Positions 32,310 through 42,313 of a stretch of DNA of 64,000 nt are shown here, in pieces. The stretch covers positions 3,720,001-3,784,000 of the forward strand of contig NZ_CP023439.1 in NCBI RefSeq assembly GCF_002354895.1, given 5' to 3'. Within the stretch, counting starts at the first letter, position 1, and each line of letters opens with the position of its first letter. A program made the translations under genes and the position numbers. Source of the DNA: Thauera sp. K11. GTDB lineage: Bacteria > Pseudomonadota > Gammaproteobacteria > Burkholderiales > Rhodocyclaceae. A model generated the notes under the pieces. It did no database searches. It was not told the DNA's origin and saw only the letters and a program-made list of their open reading frames with translations.

Positions 32310-34194
<1,885 letters not shown>

Positions 34195-34260
34195 ACCAGG
34201 CCCAGGCGGACGACACCCTCGCCAGCCGGCGACCGGATGACTCGACGCGGCAGGTCTGGA

Positions 34261-34350
34261 GCCGGGGGATGCGTGGAGCGGGCGAGGACTGTCCGAGCAC
34301 CGAGCGCAGCGAGGGCGAGTTCCGCAGCCCGACGGAACGCATCCCCCGGC
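34261..34350. repeat. Palindromic element with 14-base terminal inverted repeats (copy A)
   Basis: Arms GCCGGGGGATGCGT (34261-34274) and ACGCATCCCCCGGC (34337-34350) are perfect inverted repeats. The interior contains the core shared with copies at 40680 and 40868: GCGAGGACTGTCCGAG and later GGGCGAGTTCCGCAGC. The core is conserved, but the arms differ between copies. Confidence 0.75.
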
Positions 34351-34576
34351 TCCGGACCGGATTCAGGAGACGCGCCGTAACGAGCAAAGACCGTCCAAGC
34401 CCCAAGCGCAGCGAGGGCGGGTTCCGCGGCCCGACGGAACGCACCCCCCGGCTCCGGACCGGACTCAGGAGACGCGCCGTAACGAGCGAAGACCGCCCAA
34501 GCCCCAAGCGCAGCGAGGGCGGGTTCCGCAGCCGACGGAGCGCATCCCGACTCCAGACCGGATTGCCGGGCATCCA
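34284..34576. repeat. Tandem 102-base repeats (two full copies and a partial third)
   Basis: Units at 34284-34385, 34386-34487 and 34488 to about 34576 share AAGCGCAGCGAGGGCGGGTT, then GACGGAACGCA, CCGGCTCCGGACCGGA and CAGGAGACGCGCCGTAACGA, with a few substitutions. The first unit overlaps copy A of the palindromic element; later units carry only its right-hand arm. It looks like local amplification of the element with flanking DNA. Confidence 0.8.
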
Positions 34577-34595
34577 TGAGCCTGGCCCGGCGACC

Positions 34596-35537
34596 TCACA
34601 GGCCGGCGTCGGTCCCGCCGCCGCTGCGCGCCGCCTCGACGATGCGGCGCGTCAGCGAGGGCACGAACAGCTCGATGAACGCATAGACGAAACCGCGCAG
34701 CCACGCGTTGCGGCGGATGCCGATGCGCGTGGTGCTCGATTCGAACAGGTGGCTGGCATCCACCATGCCGAGCTTGCGGTCCTCGTCGGCATCGTAGGCC
34801 ATGCGCGCGAGGATGCCGATGCCCAGGTCCATCTCCACGTACTTCTTGATCACGTCCGAGTCGATCGCGGTGAGCACCACGTTCGGCTTCAGGCCGCGGC
34901 CGAGGAACGCCTTGTTGATCTGGCCGCGGCCGGTGAAGGCATCGTCGTAGGTGATCAGCGGATAGCGCGCGATCGCCTCCAGCGTCAGCGGATGCTCGCG
35001 CAGGATGGGGTGGCGCGGCGTGGCGACGATGCAGCGGTTCCACTGGTAGCACGGCAGCATCACCAGGTCGGGATTGTCGGCGATGGCCTCGGTGGCGATG
35101 GCGATGTCGGCGCCGCCGCTCAGCACCATGTCGCACACCTGCTGCGGATCGCCCTGGTGCAGCTCCAGCCGCACCCCGGGATAGCGCTGCATGAAGTCGC
35201 GCACCACGCGCGGCAGCACGTAGCGCGCCTGGGTGTGGGTGGTGGCGATCGACAGCGTGCCGGACGACTCGTTGGAGAATTCCTCCCCCACCTGCAGCAG
35301 GTTGTCCATGTCGCGCAGCATGCGCTGGGCGATCGCCAGCACTGCGCGGCCCGGTTCGGTGACCGCGACGAGGCGCTTGCCGTGGCGGGCGAAGATCTCG
35401 ACCCCCAGTTCCGCCTCCAGCAAGCGGATCTGCTTCGAAACGCCCGGCTGCGAGGTGAACAACGCCTCGGCCGCGTCCGACACGTTGAGACCACGCCGCG
35501 CGACCTCGTGGATGTAACGCAGTTGCTGGAGATTCAT
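34596..35537 (-). CDS. cysB: CysB-type LysR regulator of sulfur assimilation
   Basis: A 313-residue LysR protein of the CysB/Cbl group: MNLQQLRYIHEVARRGLNVSDAAEALFTSQPGVSKQ gives the winged helix-turn-helix, and the effector domain has TTHTQARYVLP, typical of CysB. CysB-type proteins respond to O-acetylserine, thiosulfate or sulfate and control cys genes. It is divergent from a run of sulfate-reduction genes, with a LysR-type inverted repeat in the intervening 119 bases. Confidence 0.93.
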   Translation of the reverse strand: MNLQQLRYIHEVARRGLNVSDAAEALFTSQPGVSKQIRLLEAELGVEIFARHGKRLVAVTEPGRAVLAIAQRMLRDMDNLLQVGEEFSNESSGTLSIATTHTQARYVLPRVVRDFMQRYPGVRLELHQGDPQQVCDMVLSGGADIAIATEAIADNPDLVMLPCYQWNRCIVATPRHPILREHPLTLEAIARYPLITYDDAFTGRGQINKAFLGRGLKPNVVLTAIDSDVIKKYVEMDLGIGILARMAYDADEDRKLGMVDASHLFESSTTRIGIRRNAWLRGFVYAFIELFVPSLTRRIVEAARSGGGTDAGL

Positions 35538-35563
35538 CGTGGTTTCGCACGTGCCGGGCGTGC

Positions 35564-35584
35564 TTAATAACCAATAGTTCTTAA
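35564..35584. promoter_or_regulatory. Candidate CysB operator between cysB and the cys operon
   Basis: An imperfect inverted repeat TTAATAAC-CAATA-GTTCTTAA (7 of 8 arm positions match) in AT-rich DNA between the divergent genes, in the place a LysR regulator normally binds its own and the divergent promoter. No experimental consensus was available to test it. Confidence 0.5.
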
Positions 35585-35656
35585 AGTCTAACGCACATCG
35601 CCTTTATCGCCCTAACCGTCACGATTAGGATGCCGGGCATAAAAAAGGAACATTCT

Positions 35657-36436
35657 ATGGATTTCGCCTACACGCTCGCAGGCTTCTCGGTCGGCGCCAT
35701 CGTCGGACTCACTGGCGTCGGTGGAGGTTCGCTGATGACGCCGCTGCTGGTATTGCTGTTCGGTATCCATCCGTCGGTGGCGGTGGGCACCGACCTGCTC
35801 TACGCTGCAATCACCAAGGCGGGCGGAACCTTGGCCCACGGCCTGCGAGGGACGGTAGACTGGCAGATCACCCGCCGCCTGGCATCCGGCAGCATTCCGG
35901 CCGCCGCGCTGACGCTGCTGCTGGTGCACCAGTTCGCACCCGGCGGCATCGACGGCGCAGCCGACCTGATCAAGGTGGTGCTGGGCGTGGCCCTGCTGCT
36001 GACGGCGGTGGCCCTGATCCTGCGCAAGCGCATCCAGGACTACGCCCGCCGGCACTTCGGCGACACGCCCAACCCGGTCCGCACCGCGCGGCTGACGGTG
36101 CTGACCGGCGCGGTGCTCGGCGTGCTGGTGTCGATCTCGTCGGTCGGCGCCGGCGCACTGGGCGTCACCGCGCTGTTCTTTCTCTATCCGGCCATGCCCG
36201 CCCTGCGCATCGTCGGCTCGGACATCGCCCACGCGGTGCCGCTGACCGCCGTCGCCGGCATCGGGCACTGGATGCTGGGGAGCGTGGACTGGCTGCTGCT
36301 GGGCAGCCTGCTGGTCGGCTCCCTGCCCGGCATCTGGATCGGCAGCCACATTTCGACCAAGGTGCCCGACCGCATCCTCCGCCCGATGCTGGCGGCGATG
36401 CTGGTGATGGTGGGTGCGAAGCTGATCGGCCGCTGA
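35657..36436 (+). CDS. TauE/SafE-family sulfite exporter-like protein
   Basis: A 259-residue membrane protein with about eight hydrophobic segments and the duplicated family motif: GLTGVGGGSLMTPLL near residue 17 and SISSVGAGALGVTALFFLYP in the second half. TauE/SafE proteins move sulfite, sulfoacetate or similar organosulfur anions. Being the first gene of a sulfate-reduction run, sulfite (the CysI substrate) or sulfate is the likely solute. Start 35657 was chosen for the AAGGAA 7 bases upstream. Confidence 0.87.
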   Translation: MDFAYTLAGFSVGAIVGLTGVGGGSLMTPLLVLLFGIHPSVAVGTDLLYAAITKAGGTLAHGLRGTVDWQITRRLASGSIPAAALTLLLVHQFAPGGIDGAADLIKVVLGVALLLTAVALILRKRIQDYARRHFGDTPNPVRTARLTVLTGAVLGVLVSISSVGAGALGVTALFFLYPAMPALRIVGSDIAHAVPLTAVAGIGHWMLGSVDWLLLGSLLVGSLPGIWIGSHISTKVPDRILRPMLAAMLVMVGAKLIGR

Positions 36437-36490
36437 CAGCGCGCCCGCAGCACGCGGTGAAGAACCCCCGGACTTAACCAGAGAGACGCA

Positions 36491-38179
36491 ATGTACCGAT
36501 ACGACGAATACGACCAGCACATCGTGGACGAACGGGTGGCGCAATACGCCGACCAGACGGCACGCTACCTGGCCGGCGAACTGGGCGAGGACGAGTTCCG
36601 TCCGCTGCGCCTGCAGAACGGCCTCTACATCCAGCGCCACGCGCCGATGCTGCGCATCGCGGTTCCCTACGGCAACCTGCGCGCGGAGCAACTGCGCATG
36701 TTCGCCCACATCGCACGCACCTACGACCACGGCTACGGCCACTTCACCACGCGCCAGAACCTGCAGTACAACTGGCCGAAGCTCGAGGACGTGCCGGAGA
36801 TCCTGCGCCTGCTCGCCAGCGTGCAGATGCATGCCATCCAGACATCGGGCAACTGTATCCGCAACGTCACGTCCGACCCGTTCGCCGGCGTGGCCGCCGA
36901 CGAGTTGATCGACCCGCGCCCGTGGTGCGAGATCGTGCGCCAGTGGAGCACCTTCCACCCCGAGTTCGCCTACCTGCCGCGCAAGTTCAAGATCGCCGTG
37001 AACGGCGCGGCGGAAGACCGCGCCGCGATCCAGATCCACGACATCGGCCTCGACCTCAGGCGCGACGCCGGGGGCAACGTCGGCTTTCGCGTGCTGGTGG
37101 GCGGCGGGCTCGGCCGCACGCCCATCCTCGGCGAGGAAGTGGCGAGCTTCGTGCCGTGGCAGCAGATCCTCAACTACTGCGAGGCGGTGCTGCGCGTCTA
37201 CAACCTGCACGGCCGGCGCGACAACGCCTACAAGGCACGCATCAAGATCCTGGTGAAGGCGCTGGGCGTGGAAGAGTTCGCGCGCCAGGTCGAAGCCGAG
37301 TTCGTGCATCTGAAGGACGGCCCGTCCACGCTCACCCAGGCCGAGATCGACCGCGTCGCCGGCCGCTTCACCGATCCGGAACTGGCGCCGCTGCCGCCGG
37401 ACGAGGACTACCGCGCCCGTCTCGCCGACGACAAGGGCTTCGCCAACTGGGCCAGGCGCAACGTGCGCGGGCACCAGCTCTCCGGCTACGCCAGCGTCGT
37501 GCTGTCGCTGAAGAAGCCCGGCATCGCCCCCGGCGACATCACCGCCGAACAGTTCGACGCGGTGGCCGACCTGTGCGAGCGCCATGCCCAGGGCGAAGTG
37601 CGCGTGCTGCACGAGCAGAACCTCGCCTTCGCCAGCGTGCGCGAAGCCGACCTGTACGATTTGTGGCAGCAGTTGCGCACGCTCGGCCTGGCCACGCCCA
37701 ACATCGGCCTCCTGACCGACATCATCTCGTGCCCCGGCGGCGACTTCTGCTCGCTCGCCAATGCCAAGTCGATCCCGATCGCGCTGGCGATCCAGGACCG
37801 CTTCGACGACCTCGACTACCTGCACGACATCGGCGAACTCGAGCTGAACATCTCCGGCTGCATGAATGCCTGTGGCCACCACCACGTCGGCCACATCGGC
37901 GTGCTCGGCGTCGACAAGAGCGGCGAGGAGTGGTACCAGGTCACGATCGGCGGCGCCCAGGGCGAAAACGCCTCGCTGGGCAAGGTCATCGGCCCGTCCT
38001 TCGCCGCGGCCGAGATGCCCGACGTGGTCGAGTCGCTGATCCGCAGCTACGTCGACAACCGCAACGAAGGCGAGTCCTTCGTCGACACCGTACGCCGCCT
38101 CGGCATCGAGCCGTTCAAGACGCGCGTGTATGCCGAACGCGCCTCCCGCCAGGAAGAAAGGAAGACCGCCCATGCCTGA
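36491..38179 (+). CDS. cysI: Assimilatory sulfite reductase, siroheme subunit
   Basis: A 562-residue nitrite/sulfite reductase protein. The 4Fe-4S/siroheme cysteines are C414, C420, C457 and C461 (CPGGDFC and CMNACGHHH); the siroheme region HFTTRQNLQYNWPKL lies near residue 90. It reduces sulfite to sulfide by six electrons. No CysJ flavoprotein is encoded here, so electrons may come from ferredoxin or another reductase. It overlaps the next gene by 8 bases, which supports coupling. Confidence 0.94.
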   Translation: MYRYDEYDQHIVDERVAQYADQTARYLAGELGEDEFRPLRLQNGLYIQRHAPMLRIAVPYGNLRAEQLRMFAHIARTYDHGYGHFTTRQNLQYNWPKLEDVPEILRLLASVQMHAIQTSGNCIRNVTSDPFAGVAADELIDPRPWCEIVRQWSTFHPEFAYLPRKFKIAVNGAAEDRAAIQIHDIGLDLRRDAGGNVGFRVLVGGGLGRTPILGEEVASFVPWQQILNYCEAVLRVYNLHGRRDNAYKARIKILVKALGVEEFARQVEAEFVHLKDGPSTLTQAEIDRVAGRFTDPELAPLPPDEDYRARLADDKGFANWARRNVRGHQLSGYASVVLSLKKPGIAPGDITAEQFDAVADLCERHAQGEVRVLHEQNLAFASVREADLYDLWQQLRTLGLATPNIGLLTDIISCPGGDFCSLANAKSIPIALAIQDRFDDLDYLHDIGELELNISGCMNACGHHHVGHIGVLGVDKSGEEWYQVTIGGAQGENASLGKVIGPSFAAAEMPDVVESLIRSYVDNRNEGESFVDTVRRLGIEPFKTRVYAERASRQEERKTAHA

Positions 38180-38723
38180 GATCATCAAGAACGGCCAGGT
38201 CCATGCCGACGAATGGACGGTGCTGCGCCTTGCCGCGGACGAGGACGCCGCCGGCGCCGGACTGCCTGCGGGCCGCGTGATCGTCCCGCTCGCCGTCTGG
38301 CTCGCACGCCGCGAGGCGCTGCTGCCGCTGGCCGAAGCCGGCGTGCTCGGCGTCTGGCTGGCCGGCAGCGACGATCCGGCGGCGCTCGCCGGCGACCTGC
38401 CGAGGCTGCAGCTCATCGCGGTCGATTTCCCGAAGTTCGTCGACGGCCGCGGCTATTCGATCGCCGCGCTGCTGCGCAGCCGGTACGGCTACGGCGGCGA
38501 ACTGCGCGCGATCGGCGAAGTGCTGCGCGACCAGTTCTTCTACATGAAGCGCTGCGGCTTCGACAGCATGCAGCCGCCCGCGGGCAGATACACCCACGCC
38601 CAGCTCGAGGCGGCGCTCGCCAGCCTGCGCACCTTCTCCGAACCCTACCAGGGCGCGGTCGATGTCGCCGAGCCGCTGTTCCGCCGCCGCCCGCACCCGG
38701 CTCCGGCCAAGGAAAAAGCATGA
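38172..38723 (+). CDS. DUF934 protein accompanying CysI
   Basis: A 183-residue DUF934 protein (DFPKFVDGRGYSIAALLRSR near the middle, QFFYMKRCGFDSMQ). Proteins of this family are regularly encoded right after cysI in proteobacteria and are presumed to assist sulfite reduction, perhaps as an electron-transfer or assembly partner, but the function is unknown. The start overlaps the cysI stop; its own stop lies in the first stem of a repeat array before cysH. Confidence 0.9.
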   Translation: MPEIIKNGQVHADEWTVLRLAADEDAAGAGLPAGRVIVPLAVWLARREALLPLAEAGVLGVWLAGSDDPAALAGDLPRLQLIAVDFPKFVDGRGYSIAALLRSRYGYGGELRAIGEVLRDQFFYMKRCGFDSMQPPAGRYTHAQLEAALASLRTFSEPYQGAVDVAEPLFRRRPHPAPAKEKA

Positions 38724-38791
38724 GCGCCCCCGCCCGCCCGAAGGGGGCGCTCATCCTCCCTCGGGGAGGATGTCGCGCAGCGACAGGAGGG
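38722..38791 (+). repeat. Array of three stem-loops with the cysH ribosome-binding site
   Basis: Three consecutive hairpins: GAGCGCCCCC/GGGGGCGCTC (38722-38731, 38743-38752), ATCCTCCC/GGGAGGAT (38753-38760, 38764-38771) and GTCGC-GCA-GCGAC (38772-38784), then AGGAGGG (38785-38791), the Shine-Dalgarno for cysH at 38799. Compact, ordered palindromes like this recall mobile intergenic repeats; there is no T-run for termination. Confidence 0.7.
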
Positions 38792-38798
38792 TAGTCCA

Positions 38799-39569
38799 AT
38801 GAGCGCCACCGTCTCCCTGCTGCGCCCGGCGCCGACCAACCCCGCCACCCGCCCCGAACTGACCGACGCACTGCGCGCGGCGGTCGCCGGCAAGGCCGCG
38901 GCCGCACAGGACTTCCTGCGCGCGGCGATGGCCGAGTTCGGCACCGGCGGCGAACTCACCTTCGCCAACAGCTTCGGCGCCGAGGACATGGTGCTGACCG
39001 ACCTGATCCTGCAGGCGAAGCTGCCGATCGAGATCTTCTCGCTCGACACCGGCCGCCTGCCGGCCGAGACCTACACGCTGATCGGCGAAGTCGAGAAGCG
39101 CTACGGCGTGAAGCTGAAGATCTTCTTCCCCGACGCCGCCGCGGTCGAACAGTTCGTGCGCACCAGCGGCATCAACGCCTTCTACGATTCGGTCGATCTG
39201 CGCAAAGCCTGCTGCGGCGTGCGCAAGATGGAACCGCTGCGCCGCGCGCTCGCCGGCAAGAAGGCTTGGATCACCGGCCTGCGCGCCGCCCAGTCGGTGA
39301 CCCGCACCGGCATGGCCCTGCGCGAGTTCGACGACGGCAACGGCCTCGAGAAGCTCAATCCGCTGCTGAACTGGAGCGAAGCCGAGGTGTGGGCCTACAT
39401 CCGCATCCACGACGTGCCCTACAACGCGCTGCACGACCAGTTCTACCCGAGCATCGGCTGCGCGCCCTGTACGCGGGCGATCGCCGTCGGCGAGGACGTG
39501 CGCGCCGGCCGCTGGTGGTGGGAGGACCCCGCCACCAAGGAATGCGGCCTGCACGTGAGCGAGCGCTGA
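38799..39569 (+). CDS. cysH: Assimilatory adenylyl-sulfate (APS) reductase
   Basis: A 256-residue reductase. Paired cysteines C138/C139 (KACCGVRK) and C221/C224 (GCAPC) are the ligands of a 4Fe-4S cluster, which marks APS rather than PAPS reductase; the catalytic cysteine is C249 in ECGLH. It reduces APS with thioredoxin to sulfite and AMP. This agrees with a CysN without a fused APS kinase and no cysC in the window. AGGAGGG precedes the start. Confidence 0.94.
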   Translation: MSATVSLLRPAPTNPATRPELTDALRAAVAGKAAAAQDFLRAAMAEFGTGGELTFANSFGAEDMVLTDLILQAKLPIEIFSLDTGRLPAETYTLIGEVEKRYGVKLKIFFPDAAAVEQFVRTSGINAFYDSVDLRKACCGVRKMEPLRRALAGKKAWITGLRAAQSVTRTGMALREFDDGNGLEKLNPLLNWSEAEVWAYIRIHDVPYNALHDQFYPSIGCAPCTRAIAVGEDVRAGRWWWEDPATKECGLHVSER

Positions 39570-39713
39570 GCGATGCAAAGCCCGCATCCGGCACACGCCC
39601 CCCCGGTGCGGCGCCCCGCGCGCTCCGCTCCCCGGCCGGGACCGGCTGCCGGCGCTGCGGGCCGGCCTGCACGCCTTCGGCCCCGCGACACCCACGAAAT
39701 GCTGAACAGAATC

Positions 39714-40628
39714 ATGTCGACCCTTACCAAACAGACGCTTTCCCATCTCGACTGGCTCGAGGCCGAGGCCATCCACATCCTGCGCGAAGTCGCGGGCCAG
39801 TGCTCCAACCCGGTGCTGCTGTTCTCCGGCGGCAAGGATTCGATCTGCCTGCTGCGCCTGGCCGAAAAAGCCTTCCGCCCGGGCCGCTTCCCCTTTCCGC
39901 TGATGCACATCGACACCGGCCACAACTACAGGGAAGTGACGGACTTCCGCGACAGGCGCGCCGCCGAACTGGGCGAGCGCCTGATCGTGCGCTCGGTGGA
40001 AGATTCGATGGCGCGCGGCACGGTGGTGCTGAAGCACCCGCAGGAGAGCCGCAACAAGCACCAGTCGGTGACGCTGCTGGAGGCGATCGAGGAATTCGGC
40101 TTCGACTGCTGCATCGGCGGCGCCCGCCGCGACGAGGAAAAGGCGCGCGCGAAGGAGCGGATCATGAGCTTCCGCGACGAGTTCGGCCAATGGGACCCGA
40201 AGAACCAGCGCCCGGAGCTGTGGAACCTGTACAACGCGCGCAGCCACAAGGGCGAGAACATCCGCGCCTTCCCGATCAGCAACTGGACCGAACTCGACGT
40301 GTGGCAGTACATCGCCCGCGAGCAACTGGAACTGCCGTCGATCTACTTCGCCCACACCCGCCCGGTGGTGCGCAAGAGCGGCCTGCTGCAGCCGGTGACC
40401 GAAGTGACGCCGGCCAGGGACGGCGACGTGGTCGAGGAGGTTCTCGTGCGCTTTCGCACCGTCGGCGACATCACCTGCACGGCGCCGGTCGAGTCCGACG
40501 CCGACACGGTGGAGAAGATCCTCGCCGAGACCGCGACGACGACGATCACCGAGCGCGGCGCGACGCGGATGGACGACCAGACCTCCGAAGCGTCGATGGA
40601 GCAGCGCAAGAAGGAAGGGTATTTCTGA
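39714..40628 (+). CDS. cysD: Sulfate adenylyltransferase subunit 2
   Basis: A 304-residue subunit with the PP-loop SGGKDS at residues 38-43, HIDTGHNYREVTDFRD and the GARRDEEKARAKER stretch. With the GTPase CysN it forms ATP sulfurylase, making APS from sulfate and ATP. The open frame begins far upstream; 39714 gives the normal family N-terminus MSTLTKQTLSHLDWLE, with 39699 as an alternative. CysN follows after a 398-base repeat-filled gap, which is unusual for such a pair. Confidence 0.93.
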   Translation: MSTLTKQTLSHLDWLEAEAIHILREVAGQCSNPVLLFSGGKDSICLLRLAEKAFRPGRFPFPLMHIDTGHNYREVTDFRDRRAAELGERLIVRSVEDSMARGTVVLKHPQESRNKHQSVTLLEAIEEFGFDCCIGGARRDEEKARAKERIMSFRDEFGQWDPKNQRPELWNLYNARSHKGENIRAFPISNWTELDVWQYIAREQLELPSIYFAHTRPVVRKSGLLQPVTEVTPARDGDVVEEVLVRFRTVGDITCTAPVESDADTVEKILAETATTTITERGATRMDDQTSEASMEQRKKEGYF

Positions 40629-40679
40629 TTTCTTGACCCTGTTGAAAGGCAAGACCACGGAAATCTGAACGGACGGCGC

Positions 40680-40766
40680 GCGGGGTATTTGCTCCGTTGG
40701 GCTGCGGAACTCGCCTTCGCTGCGCTCGGCTCAGACAGTCCTCGCCCAACTCCGCAAACACCCCGC
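40680..40766 (-). repeat. Palindromic element, copy B (inverted orientation)
   Basis: Arms GCGGGGTATTTGC (40680-40692) and GCAAACACCCCGC (40754-40766) match at 12 of 13 positions. On the minus strand the interior reads GCGAGGACTGTCTGAG then GAAGGCGAGTTCCGCAGC, the same core as copies A and C. Arm sequence is specific to this copy. Confidence 0.75.
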
Positions 40767-40867
40767 TCGTCCCGCCACGGTGTTACCGATGGCCGCAAAG
40801 GCAAAAACCGAACCGTCGATCGTTCCCTGCCGGCGCATGAACCACCATCCACGGTAGCCAGAGACGT

Positions 40868-40943
40868 GCCGGGTGTTCCTGGAGAAGGCGAGGACTGTCC
40901 GAGCCCGAAGGGCGAGTTCCGCAGCCTTCGGAAGGAACACCCG
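40868..40943 (+). repeat. Palindromic element, copy C
   Basis: Perfect 12-base arms CCGGGTGTTCCT (40868-40879) and AGGAACACCCGG (40932-40943). The interior reads GCGAGGACTGTCCGAG then GGGCGAGTTCCGCAGC, as in copy A, but the middle of the element is shorter and the arms differ. Confidence 0.75.
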
Positions 40944-41026
40944 GTGCGGCTCCGGCGGATCGCAGGCGCGAACGCCCCACCGGCAGAGGCCCGCAGCCAA
41001 CGAATTTGAGAAAGCTTGAAGGAATC

Positions 41027-42313
41027 ATGACCATGTCCGCTCCCGAACAACTGCCCGAGATCGACAACGGCCTGCTGCGCTTCTTGACCTGCGGCAGCGT
41101 GGACGACGGCAAGAGCACGCTGATCGGCCGCCTGCTGTTCGACACCAAGACCATTCTCGCCGACACCCTCAACGCCATCGAGAAGACCTCGGCCAAGCGC
41201 GGCATGAGCGCGGTCGACCTGTCGCTGCTCACCGACGGCCTGCAGGCCGAACGCGAGCAGGGCATCACCATCGACGTCGCCTACCGCTACTTCTCCACCG
41301 GCCGGCGCAAGTACATCATCGCCGACGCCCCCGGCCACGAGCAGTACACCCGCAACATGGTGACCGCGGCCTCCACCGCCAACCTCGCCATCATCCTCAT
41401 CGACGCGCGCAAGGGCGTGCTGACGCAGACCCGGCGGCACTCCTACCTTGCCAGCCTGGTCGGCATTCCCCACCTGGTCGTCGCGGTGAACAAGATGGAC
41501 CTCGTCGACTACGACCGGGCGGTGTTCGAGCGCATCGAGGCCGACTACCGCGCCTTCGCCGGCAAGCTCGGCATCCGGGACGTGCGCTTCATTCCGCTGT
41601 CGGCGCTCAACGGCGACATGGTCGTCGAGCGTGGCGACCGCCTGGACTGGTACAGCGGCCCCACCCTGCTCGACATCCTCGAGGCCGCGCCGGCCGCCCA
41701 CACCGAGCGGGCCGAGGACTTCCGCTTTCCGGTGCAGTTCGTGTGCCGGCCGCAGGACTCCGCCAACCCCGAACTGCACGACTACCGCGGCTTCATGGGC
41801 CGGGTGGAGTCGGGCGAGATCGCCGTCGGCGACGAGATCACGGTGCTGCCCTCGGGCGCGGCGAGCCGGGTGAAGGCGATCGAACTCGGCGGCGTGCCGC
41901 TGCCGCGCGCGATCCACGAGCAGTCGGTGACGCTGCTGCTGGAGGACGAGATCGACATCTCGCGCGGCGATCTGATCGTGAAATCGTCGGAAGCGCCCGA
42001 GCCGGTCAAGCAGATCGAGGCCGCCGTGTGCTGGCTCTCCGAAACCCCGCTGTCGCCGGCCCGCACCTACCTCGTGCGCCACACCACGCGCGAAGTGAAG
42101 GCCAAGGTGGCGAAGATCGACTACCGCCTGGACGTGAATACGCTGGAGCGGGAAGCGGCGACCGGCCTGGCGATGAACGACATCGCCCGCGTCACGCTGA
42201 AGCTCGCGCAGCCCATCGTCGCCGACCGCTATGCCGGCAACCGTACCACCGGCGCTTTCATCGTCATCGACGAGAGCACCAACAACACCGTCGGCGCCGG
42301 CATGATCGGCTGA
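41027..42313 (+). CDS. cysN: Sulfate adenylyltransferase subunit 1 (GTPase)
   Basis: A 428-residue translation-factor-like GTPase: G1 GSVDDGKST at residues 23-31, DAPGHEQYTRNM for G3, and NKMD for G4. It couples GTP hydrolysis to APS formation by CysD. No C-terminal APS kinase is fused. The start at 41027 has GAAGGA upstream. CysN is separated from CysD by repeat elements, so it may depend on read-through or its own promoter. Confidence 0.94.
   Translation: MTMSAPEQLPEIDNGLLRFLTCGSVDDGKSTLIGRLLFDTKTILADTLNAIEKTSAKRGMSAVDLSLLTDGLQAEREQGITIDVAYRYFSTGRRKYIIADAPGHEQYTRNMVTAASTANLAIILIDARKGVLTQTRRHSYLASLVGIPHLVVAVNKMDLVDYDRAVFERIEADYRAFAGKLGIRDVRFIPLSALNGDMVVERGDRLDWYSGPTLLDILEAAPAAHTERAEDFRFPVQFVCRPQDSANPELHDYRGFMGRVESGEIAVGDEITVLPSGAASRVKAIELGGVPLPRAIHEQSVTLLLEDEIDISRGDLIVKSSEAPEPVKQIEAAVCWLSETPLSPARTYLVRHTTREVKAKVAKIDYRLDVNTLEREAATGLAMNDIARVTLKLAQPIVADRYAGNRTTGAFIVIDESTNNTVGAGMIG

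Follow-up and report, generated by a model that had tools for sequence, protein, structure and literature searches.

Thauera sp. K11 carries a family of hairpin repeats that is probably REP/BIME-like: non-coding, selected for the fold of a single strand, spread in trans, and useful to the cell. Each copy is a hairpin of about 100 to 115 nt made of a 31-nt core and long arms; the arms vary between copies yet covary, and the hairpin tip is almost invariant. It is the strand reading GAGGACTGTC...GAGTTCCGC that folds into the long stem bearing this tip. A covariance model of 112 positions has 83 matches in the K11 genome, and 32 of the 61 genomes searched (K11 included) have matches; over 29 Thauera genomes the number of copies ranges from 0 to 83. 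Elsewhere, in some unrelated bacteria too, an identical core is patchy: in a sample of 398 genomes from the phylum, 2 have it, one of them K11.

REP-like repeats tend to be treated as passengers of RAYT transposases. In Thauera, both the core and the pairing persist at orthologous sites, in a genome without a detected Y1 transposase, the asymmetry of wobble pairs names the folded strand from sequence alone, and the old question of whether REP-like repeats are useful to the cell becomes directly testable. The Thauera repeats would thereby point to an undescribed hairpin-recognizing factor.

Core sequence and elements in the window

Three complete copies lie in the window (the whole 64-kb stretch of DNA analyzed), and all were recovered at the positions given in the initial annotation. 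The features of the two sites are as follows.

33109..34194, + strand: asparaginase gene, left of element 1 (Pfam Asparaginase)
34249..34362, + strand: element 1, class A, complete hairpin (covariance-model match G000:C1:3754249-3754362)
34253-34274 / 34337-34358: inverted repeat of element 1 (inverted-repeat search)
34281..34298, + strand: element 1, core half 1 (core pattern match)
34317..34329, + strand: element 1, core half 2, GAGTTCCGCAGCC (pattern match)
34381..34564, + strand: two degraded tail units, core and 3' arm without the 5' arm (covariance-model matches and tandem repeats)
34596..35537, − strand: convergent lysR-type gene on the right side of element 1 (Pfam LysR_substrate, HTH_1)
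39573..40628, + strand: cysD (Pfam PAPS_reduct; the gene name is that of the initial annotation and ours)
40667..40779, − strand: complete hairpin of element 2, the left one of the pair between cysD and cysN (covariance-model match G000:C1:3760667-3760779)
40700..40712, − strand: element 2, core half 2 (pattern match)
40729..40746, − strand: element 2, core half 1 (core pattern match)
40855..40958, + strand: complete hairpin of element 3, the right one of the pair between cysD and cysN (covariance-model match G000:C1:3760855-3760958)
40887..40904, + strand: element 3, core half 1 (core pattern match)
40914..40926, + strand: element 3, core half 2 (pattern match)
41027..42313, + strand: cysN (Pfam GTP_EFTU; ORF listed from 41006, ATG at 41027)

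Exact GCGAGGACTGTC occurs at three places in the window (34282-34293 +, 40734-40745 −, and 40888-40899 +). At up to two mismatches it occurs at 6 places in the window against a chance expectation of 11.8, and this 12-mer with mismatches is not significant taken alone. Core half 2 at up to three mismatches was found at 18 places in the window (3.0 expected), a number reached by none of 100 shuffles. Genome-wide, GGCGAGGACTGTCNGAGC at up to two mismatches has 74 places (40 on the + strand, 34 on the − strand; 55 exact), compared with 2 for a reversed control of the pattern. On this genome-wide count, we accept the shared core as real. The core shared by the three elements is thus borne out, and, when searched in K11 and its relatives, it proved to have further copies, whose absence had been named as a finding that would refute the initial interpretation.

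Other parts of the initial annotation needed revision. Its terminal arms of 12 to 14 bases were too short, since those of many copies span about 22 to 27 bp. The two elements that it placed between cysD (end at 40628) and cysN (ATG at 41027) are indeed there, as a divergent pair (− then +). The tandem amplification reported for one of the elements is present as a repeat beside element 1 (34381-34564), but the repeated part comprises only core and 3' arm. This tail has tandem repeats of 102 nt and yields covariance-model matches at 34381-34433 (E = 0.002) and 34451-34564 (E = 2.5e-6); the cores of both units are degraded.

Arm covariation and change in place

In a covariation test on aligned copies, 25 of 34 pairs had changed on both sides, 95.0% of cells were paired (74.2% in shuffles), and the covariation score was 0.491, compared with 0.127 in shuffles, none of 500 reaching the observed value. 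Arms that differ yet remain self-complementary, as first noticed in the three elements, are a property of the family. When orthologous copies from different species are compared, pairing survives 200 double changes and is lost in 11, a comparison that took in 44 of 58 orthologous pairs, which fall in 26 groups and hence are not independent. Arms at orthologous sites change in place through compensatory substitutions, many of them via G.U, and this is why copies differ in their arms and still are self-complementary. A copying mechanism that rebuilds ends, one of the explanations first offered, is not needed, because arms change in place. Copies were chosen with at most two mismatches per core half, which caps the core divergence that could be seen.

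Class A is different in that its arms are nearly identical and homogeneous, with extra flanks also shared, which we read as recent spread. Identical arms in other copies had been named as an observation that would speak against the initial interpretation; class A comes close to this. The accompanying premise, that ordinary transposition leaves the same ends, fits these fresh copies and not the others. Mean arm identity is 0.759 to the best paralogue and 0.735 to the orthologue, and copying between copies may account for part of the pattern, paralogue arms being as alike as orthologue arms.

Strand asymmetry of wobble pairs

On the + strand, wobbles comprise 375 G.T and 59 A.C in 211 of 214 copies, a count in which most copies from relatives are top matches of a structure model that prefers arms which pair, and G.U to A.C. 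Three sets alone are free of this bias: K11 copies found by sequence pattern (49 G.T, 19 A.C), 20 copies found by their position at cysD (54 and 6), and 107 copies of other lineages (88 and 41). Among K11 class A copies, the asymmetry is 15:8 and not significant. One-sided changes from paired states in orthologous copies went to G.T in 94 cases and to A.C in 2; the 94 consist of 77 C/T and 17 A/G changes, so both kinds contribute, and a single wobble hot spot holds 48 of them. Pairwise single changes at cysD-cysN were 70 G.T to 0 A.C in right copies and 24 to 0 in left copies.

The asymmetry is alike in sense, antisense, and convergent gene settings, and the compensatory pattern likewise holds irrespective of the direction of neighboring genes. 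Copies antisense to both neighbors have 44 G.T and 6 A.C, and their one-sided changes are 30 to 0, which argues against selection via host mRNA alone. Selection on the folded form, suggested initially, is strongly supported by covariation, by pairing kept in orthologues, and by the 94:2 ratio; these comparisons suggest that what is selected is a single strand, always of the one polarity, in its folded state, either ssDNA or RNA.

Genomic placement and divergent pairs

The copies avoid genes (one overlap with a called ORF among 214 copies) and divergent promoter regions (2 of 194 have divergent genes on their two sides), and they often stand in divergent pairs. They thus show the REP/BIME trait of being extragenic, beside gene ends, and often inverted dimers. 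Neighboring copies are divergent in 38 cases, convergent in 11, and direct in 3. Arm identity is 0.597 within pairs, never above 0.79, and 0.525 between pairs; since the within-pair value is the higher, a forced difference between pair members was rejected. Spacers of divergent pairs are short or contain one gene, in other taxa sometimes a single orphan gene. Six proteins encoded inside pairs matched no transposase or integrase family (Pfam, E ≤ 0.1), and a mobilizer gene inside the pairs was likewise rejected as a candidate.

Candidate mechanisms

In our preferred interpretation, the folded + strand would be recognized as a single strand (ssDNA or its own transcript) by a putative factor, through the core and internal loops. 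Copies would have been spread by a putative mobilizer acting in trans, and the fact that old sites have retained core and fold suggests that the copies serve the cell in some way.

It is quite possible, if just short of probable, that the hairpin arises in the + strand of the DNA at replication or transfer, where a hairpin-recognizing protein binds it, as in REP/RAYT or attC/integrase. Such binding would fit a pattern independent of transcription direction, the excess of divergent pairs (27 of 32 neighboring pairs in a separate count), and an NNAG/GTAG-like tag at the 5' stem base. Of 214 copies, 29 have GTAG within the 25 nt that surround the stem base, compared with 7 in a stretch further out, and 24 of the 29 have it 31 to 33 nt before the core. 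At the 5' stem base of class B copies, NNAG is found in 114 of 180 (57 of 180 in a control stretch) and GTAG in 24 (4 in the control); the tag appears weak and is not invariant. However, the K11 genome has no match to the Y1 transposase (PF01797, Y1_Tnp; E ≤ 0.001), and 20 of the 38 Y1_Tnp matches listed for other element-bearing genomes, taken with ±1.5 kb, contain no copy with both core halves, so RAYT was rejected as the present mobilizer. Of the 21 other element-bearing genomes, 15 have PF01797 matches. Nor is a significant strand bias apparent between chromosome halves (10+/15− and 34+/24−, by inspection).

A more doubtful proposition is that the + strand of each copy is transcribed into a structured RNA that serves as a UTR element, as a processing site, or as a protein sponge. 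It accords with G.U tolerance and compensatory change and with the tandem wobbles, 40 of 42 counted being 5'UG/3'GU, the kind favored in RNA. Yet the asymmetry is equally strong in antisense copies, and the 30 to 140 nt upstream of copies hold no conserved block suggestive of a promoter, on which ground an own promoter was rejected. Rfam gave no family match on elements at gathering score (window and 18 loci) and no element match at E ≤ 1 (8 loci), the sole exception being sub-threshold microRNA models that match the L197 palindrome.

Rather unlikely, in our estimate, is a broader proposal of a patchy class of single-strand hairpins (ssDNA or self-transcribed RNA) under host-level selection on the + strand fold at dozens of sites in any orientation. 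Its divergent pairs could enclose orphan genes as hairpin-ended cassettes served by a putative trans-acting recognition protein, neither REP/RAYT nor integron.

We consider it clearly improbable that the repeats are selfish only, with intact copies alone spreading and old copies merely undecayed. Homogeneous class A copies with further shared flanks are consistent with this, as is the asparaginase-lysR element, present in K11 only and absent in 5 relatives, whose flanks are too diverged for target duplications to be read. At cysD-cysN, however, both hairpins persist at 10 of 12 occupied sites, their cores intact and their arms diverged, and identity falls to 0.56 to 0.60 at 40 to 60 nt from the core.

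Insertion into preexisting palindromes such as terminators, whose stems became arms, is very unlikely: the asparaginase-lysR gap of relatives has a short palindrome (by eye), but the inner arms of copies share a common consensus, and 5 of 11 empty cysD-cysN sites have a 32-nt gap without a comparable palindrome (by eye). Least credible is gene conversion between arms (quasi-palindrome correction), also raised initially, which would give complementary arms without selection but is not supported because it treats both strands alike and would leave G.T and A.C equal, not 375:59 and 94:2.

Relation to known repeat systems

REP/BIME/REPIN repeats are described as GTAG- and CGTC-tagged and 20 to 40 nt long (PMC3733652, PMC8266576). 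The Thauera repeats resemble them in having many intergenic hairpin copies that mostly adjoin gene ends, inverted dimers that are frequent and in many cases join unlike members, mismatched bulges in the hairpin, and, at the base of the stem, what appears to be a weak GTAG-like tag. They differ in their greater length, long covarying arms, conserved 31-nt core, a tag that is not invariant, a fold kept at orthologous sites, and a host genome in which no Y1 transposase was found.

Like bacterial MITEs, the repeats are small, non-coding, and multicopy, and inverted ends are visible by eye in class A copies and in Gallionella-type units, but no parent gene was seen between pairs. Integron attC sites are hairpins recognized by shape, with variable stems. 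The Thauera family shares the variable stem, and in other taxa a single orphan gene lies inside some of the pairs; attC conserves the stem base, whereas here the tip is conserved and flanking copies are inverted. Strong covariation and G.U tolerance recall the structured RNAs of Rfam, although no family is matched. No paper was recognized as describing the Thauera hairpin element in literature searches that included sequence strings, and the best label is a previously undescribed variant of REP-like repeats. Plasmid or phage carriage was considered and rejected: blastn gave no match for the Thauera element in plasmids or phages and none for the Gallionella-type unit in plasmids, and in IMG/VR one stretch matched.

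Hairpin elements and their sites

The three palindromic elements reported for the window in the initial annotation are real, and the two it placed between cysD and cysN form a divergent pair:

34249..34362, + strand: element 1, complete hairpin, with an asparaginase gene to its left and a convergent lysR-type gene to its right
40667..40779, - strand: element 2, complete hairpin, one member of the divergent pair between cysD and cysN
40855..40958, + strand: element 3, complete hairpin, the other member of that pair

On its own + strand, which reads core half 1 before core half 2, each element has a small hairpin of variable sequence between GGCGAGGACTGTCYGAGC and GAGTTCCGCAGCC. A few variable bases precede GGCGAGGACTGTCYGAGC and their complement follows GAGTTCCGCAGCC; the 5' and 3' arms lie outside these. 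In the predicted fold, one long stem leads through a GGA/GGA-like internal loop into a short stem, and this in turn through a GA/GCA internal loop to the capped tip. The tandem amplification also proposed holds in part: repeats are present at 34381-34564, but the repeated unit comprises the core and 3' arm only. As an inner control, in 13 class A copies (those with nearly identical arms in this genome) that have such a tail unit, the tail has 7.1 mismatches in the 31-nt core versus 0.08 in the complete hairpin, the complete hairpins having been selected for few mismatches. Some class A copies (loci L002, L016, L033, L054, and L055) share additional 5' sequence resembling CAGGGCGATCGCACGATGG, with an inverted match to it at the 3' end, and may thus belong to a larger unit.

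Searching this genome and its relatives with the core recovered many further copies. The core 18-mer occurs at 74 places in the genome with ≤2 mismatches (55 exact; reversed pattern, 2); 58 distinct copies contain both core halves, and 8 further pattern places do not contain both. A covariance model gave 83 matches here at E ≤ 0.01, and at E ≤ 0.001 it matched 32 of 61 genomes including this one, the others being 25 of 28 from the genus, 2 of 8 from elsewhere in the family, and 4 of 24 from elsewhere in the order. The exact core pattern was found in at least 119 stretches of genome_contigs, with Thauera, Azoarcus, Gallionella, Nitrospira, and Coriobacteriaceae/Eggerthellaceae among the matches listed, together with a few MAGs that may be affected by binning errors. 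In a sample of 398 genomes of the phylum, however, it was found in just 2, one of them our own; one viral contig also has it. Outer stems are very different among these taxa, the identical tip there being a consequence of the core-based search.

Sites with and without an element were compared at both window locations. cysD was found in 26 of 29 Thauera genomes, in some as a distant or partial match only. Across 23 cysD-cysN loci, both pair members occur in 10 (in G010 the contig ends there), one member or a fused remnant in 2 (G028 and G001), and no element in 11, 5 of which have an intergenic gap of 32 nt. The asparaginase-lysR site is occupied in 1 of 6 genomes compared, our own. Neighboring genes were predicted with a small script based on codon usage. 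On that basis, a single copy out of 214 overlaps an ORF; among the 194 copies whose neighbors were both called, 88 are sense, 66 are antisense, 38 lie between convergent genes, and 2 lie between divergent genes.

Arm covariation and wobble asymmetry

The arms covary. In an alignment of 56 copies (two tail units excluded), 25 of 34 stem pairs have changed on both sides, and 95.0% of cells are paired, versus 74.2% in shuffles and 37 to 50% with partners slid. The covariation score is 0.491 versus 0.127 in shuffles, for a structure taken from, and therefore favored by, the same alignment.

If the duplex alone mattered, G.T and A.C mismatches, scored on the + strand, would be equal. The two arms of 214 distinct copies (Thauera, plus a handful of Azoarcus/Aromatoleum loci) were aligned starting at the core and working outward, with a reward for Watson-Crick pairs alone and the same penalty for every mismatch. 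The 211 usable copies contain 4,578 Watson-Crick pairs, 375 G.T, 59 A.C, 304 other mismatches, and 149 gaps, with copies from relatives being mostly top matches of a structure model that favors G.U. Three sets free of that bias gave G.T:A.C ratios of 49:19 (own genome, pattern-found; p = 0.0004), 54:6 (20 copies located via cysD), and 88:41 (107 pattern-found copies of other lineages); class A of our genome alone gave 15:8, which is not significant. Thauera copies have a wobble hot spot at arm positions 17 to 20, with 40 tandem 5'UG/3'GU pairs versus 0 in the opposite order. Without it, sense copies give 64:10, antisense copies 44:6, and convergent copies 29:4.

Change in place at orthologous sites

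From 134 copies in seven Thauera genomes, 58 cross-species pairs (67 copies, 26 groups) were matched on both flanks, and arms were compared in the 44 without arm gaps (14 skipped). At 687 arm positions nothing changed; double changes kept pairing in 200 cases versus 11 broken, and single changes kept it through G.T in 94 versus 20 that broke it. Arms differ at 26.5% of bases and cores at 41 of 1,798 positions (all 58 pairs), a figure capped by selecting copies with ≤2 mismatches per core half. Single changes starting from a Watson-Crick pair led to G.T in 94 cases, A.C in 2, and other mismatches in 17 (30, 0, and 4 in copies antisense to both neighbors). The 94 comprise 77 C/T and 17 A/G changes, so one-strand deamination alone is insufficient; 48 lie in the hot spot.

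Copies found by position between cysD and cysN gave pairwise G.T:A.C changes of 70:0 (right) and 24:0 (left), with core differences at 33 of 1,395 and 18 of 1,116 positions; their broken classes (60 and 10) are inflated by pairs with out-of-register arms. Arm identity averaged 0.735 between orthologues, 0.544 between paralogues, and 0.759 with the best paralogue, the orthologue being more alike than the latter in 20 of 44 pairs. Sequence identity was 0.56 to 0.60 at 40 to 60 nt from the core, and no promoter-like identity bump appeared upstream of copies.

Covariation, wobble asymmetry, and pairing kept in orthologous copies bear out selection on the folded form, one of the explanations first offered. 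Selection acting only via host transcripts does not fit the antisense copies. Gene conversion between arms, also offered, would make them complementary but is strand symmetric, and fits neither the G.T excess nor the in-place single changes to G.T at orthologous sites. With both readings misfitting, what remains as the selected molecule is a strand-specific single strand, either single-stranded DNA recognized by shape or an RNA of its own. Differing yet complementary arms would then reflect compensatory evolution where one strand must fold and the tip sequence must stay. The single-stranded DNA form would resemble the recognition of REPs by shape by RAYT transposases, as described in PMC8266576. 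The spread of copies implies a mobiliser; a search for one found none.

Comparison with known repeats and paired copies

According to PMC3733652, REPs span 20 to 40 bp and bear a GTAG or CGTC tag, GTAG REPs accompanying RAYTs and CGTC REPs having no dedicated transposase. The Thauera copies fall outside this length, and no Y1 (RAYT) transposase was found in our genome. In distribution and dimer habit they are REP-like. Thauera GTAG-1 elements, which that paper mentions as having 5-bp stems, are not these hairpins. No matching family was found in Rfam, and no description recognized as these hairpins in a literature search whose scope excluded most subscription journals. Class B copies carry a weak tag at the 5' stem base: NNAG occurs there in 114 of 180 copies, compared with 57 of 180 for a control stretch, most commonly as GTAG (24 versus 4).

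In the 120 loci L118 to L237, of which 23 come from Thauera or its close kin, 32 pairs of neighboring copies lie within 3.5 kb, and 27 of these pairs are divergent. Their spacers measure 100 to 319 nt in 20 cases; in the other 7 they measure 0.87 to 1.22 kb and contain a gene (Mrr_N-like, DUF2971-like, unknown, and one folate-pathway gene). Neighbors within 500 nt in the Thauera set are divergent in 38 cases, convergent in 11, and direct in 3. Six loci (L125, L150, L165, L181, L204, and L237) each hold one orphan gene within a divergent pair 0.88 to 1.22 kb apart, which looks like a cassette. The folate-pathway gene, which we take to be fchA between fhs and folD, lies inside a divergent pair in an operon-like run of a Coriobacteriaceae MAG (L147:6618-7562), similar to the cysD-cysN case.

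Gallionella-type units (L165:6480-7730, L150:1490-2940, and L226:850-1430) show, by eye, further hairpins on the outside, built around stems that resemble CTTTCTTTTG..CAAAAGAAAG, and AAAACCG-like inverted ends; the L150 unit is flanked by inverted copies of a host repeat. In our genome, one divergent pair has between its members a sequence resembling an intrinsic terminator, with a GC-rich hairpin and a T run after it (L021:1570-1615), and another has a degraded third copy in its spacer (L025:1655-1760; covariance-model match 2889152-2889274).
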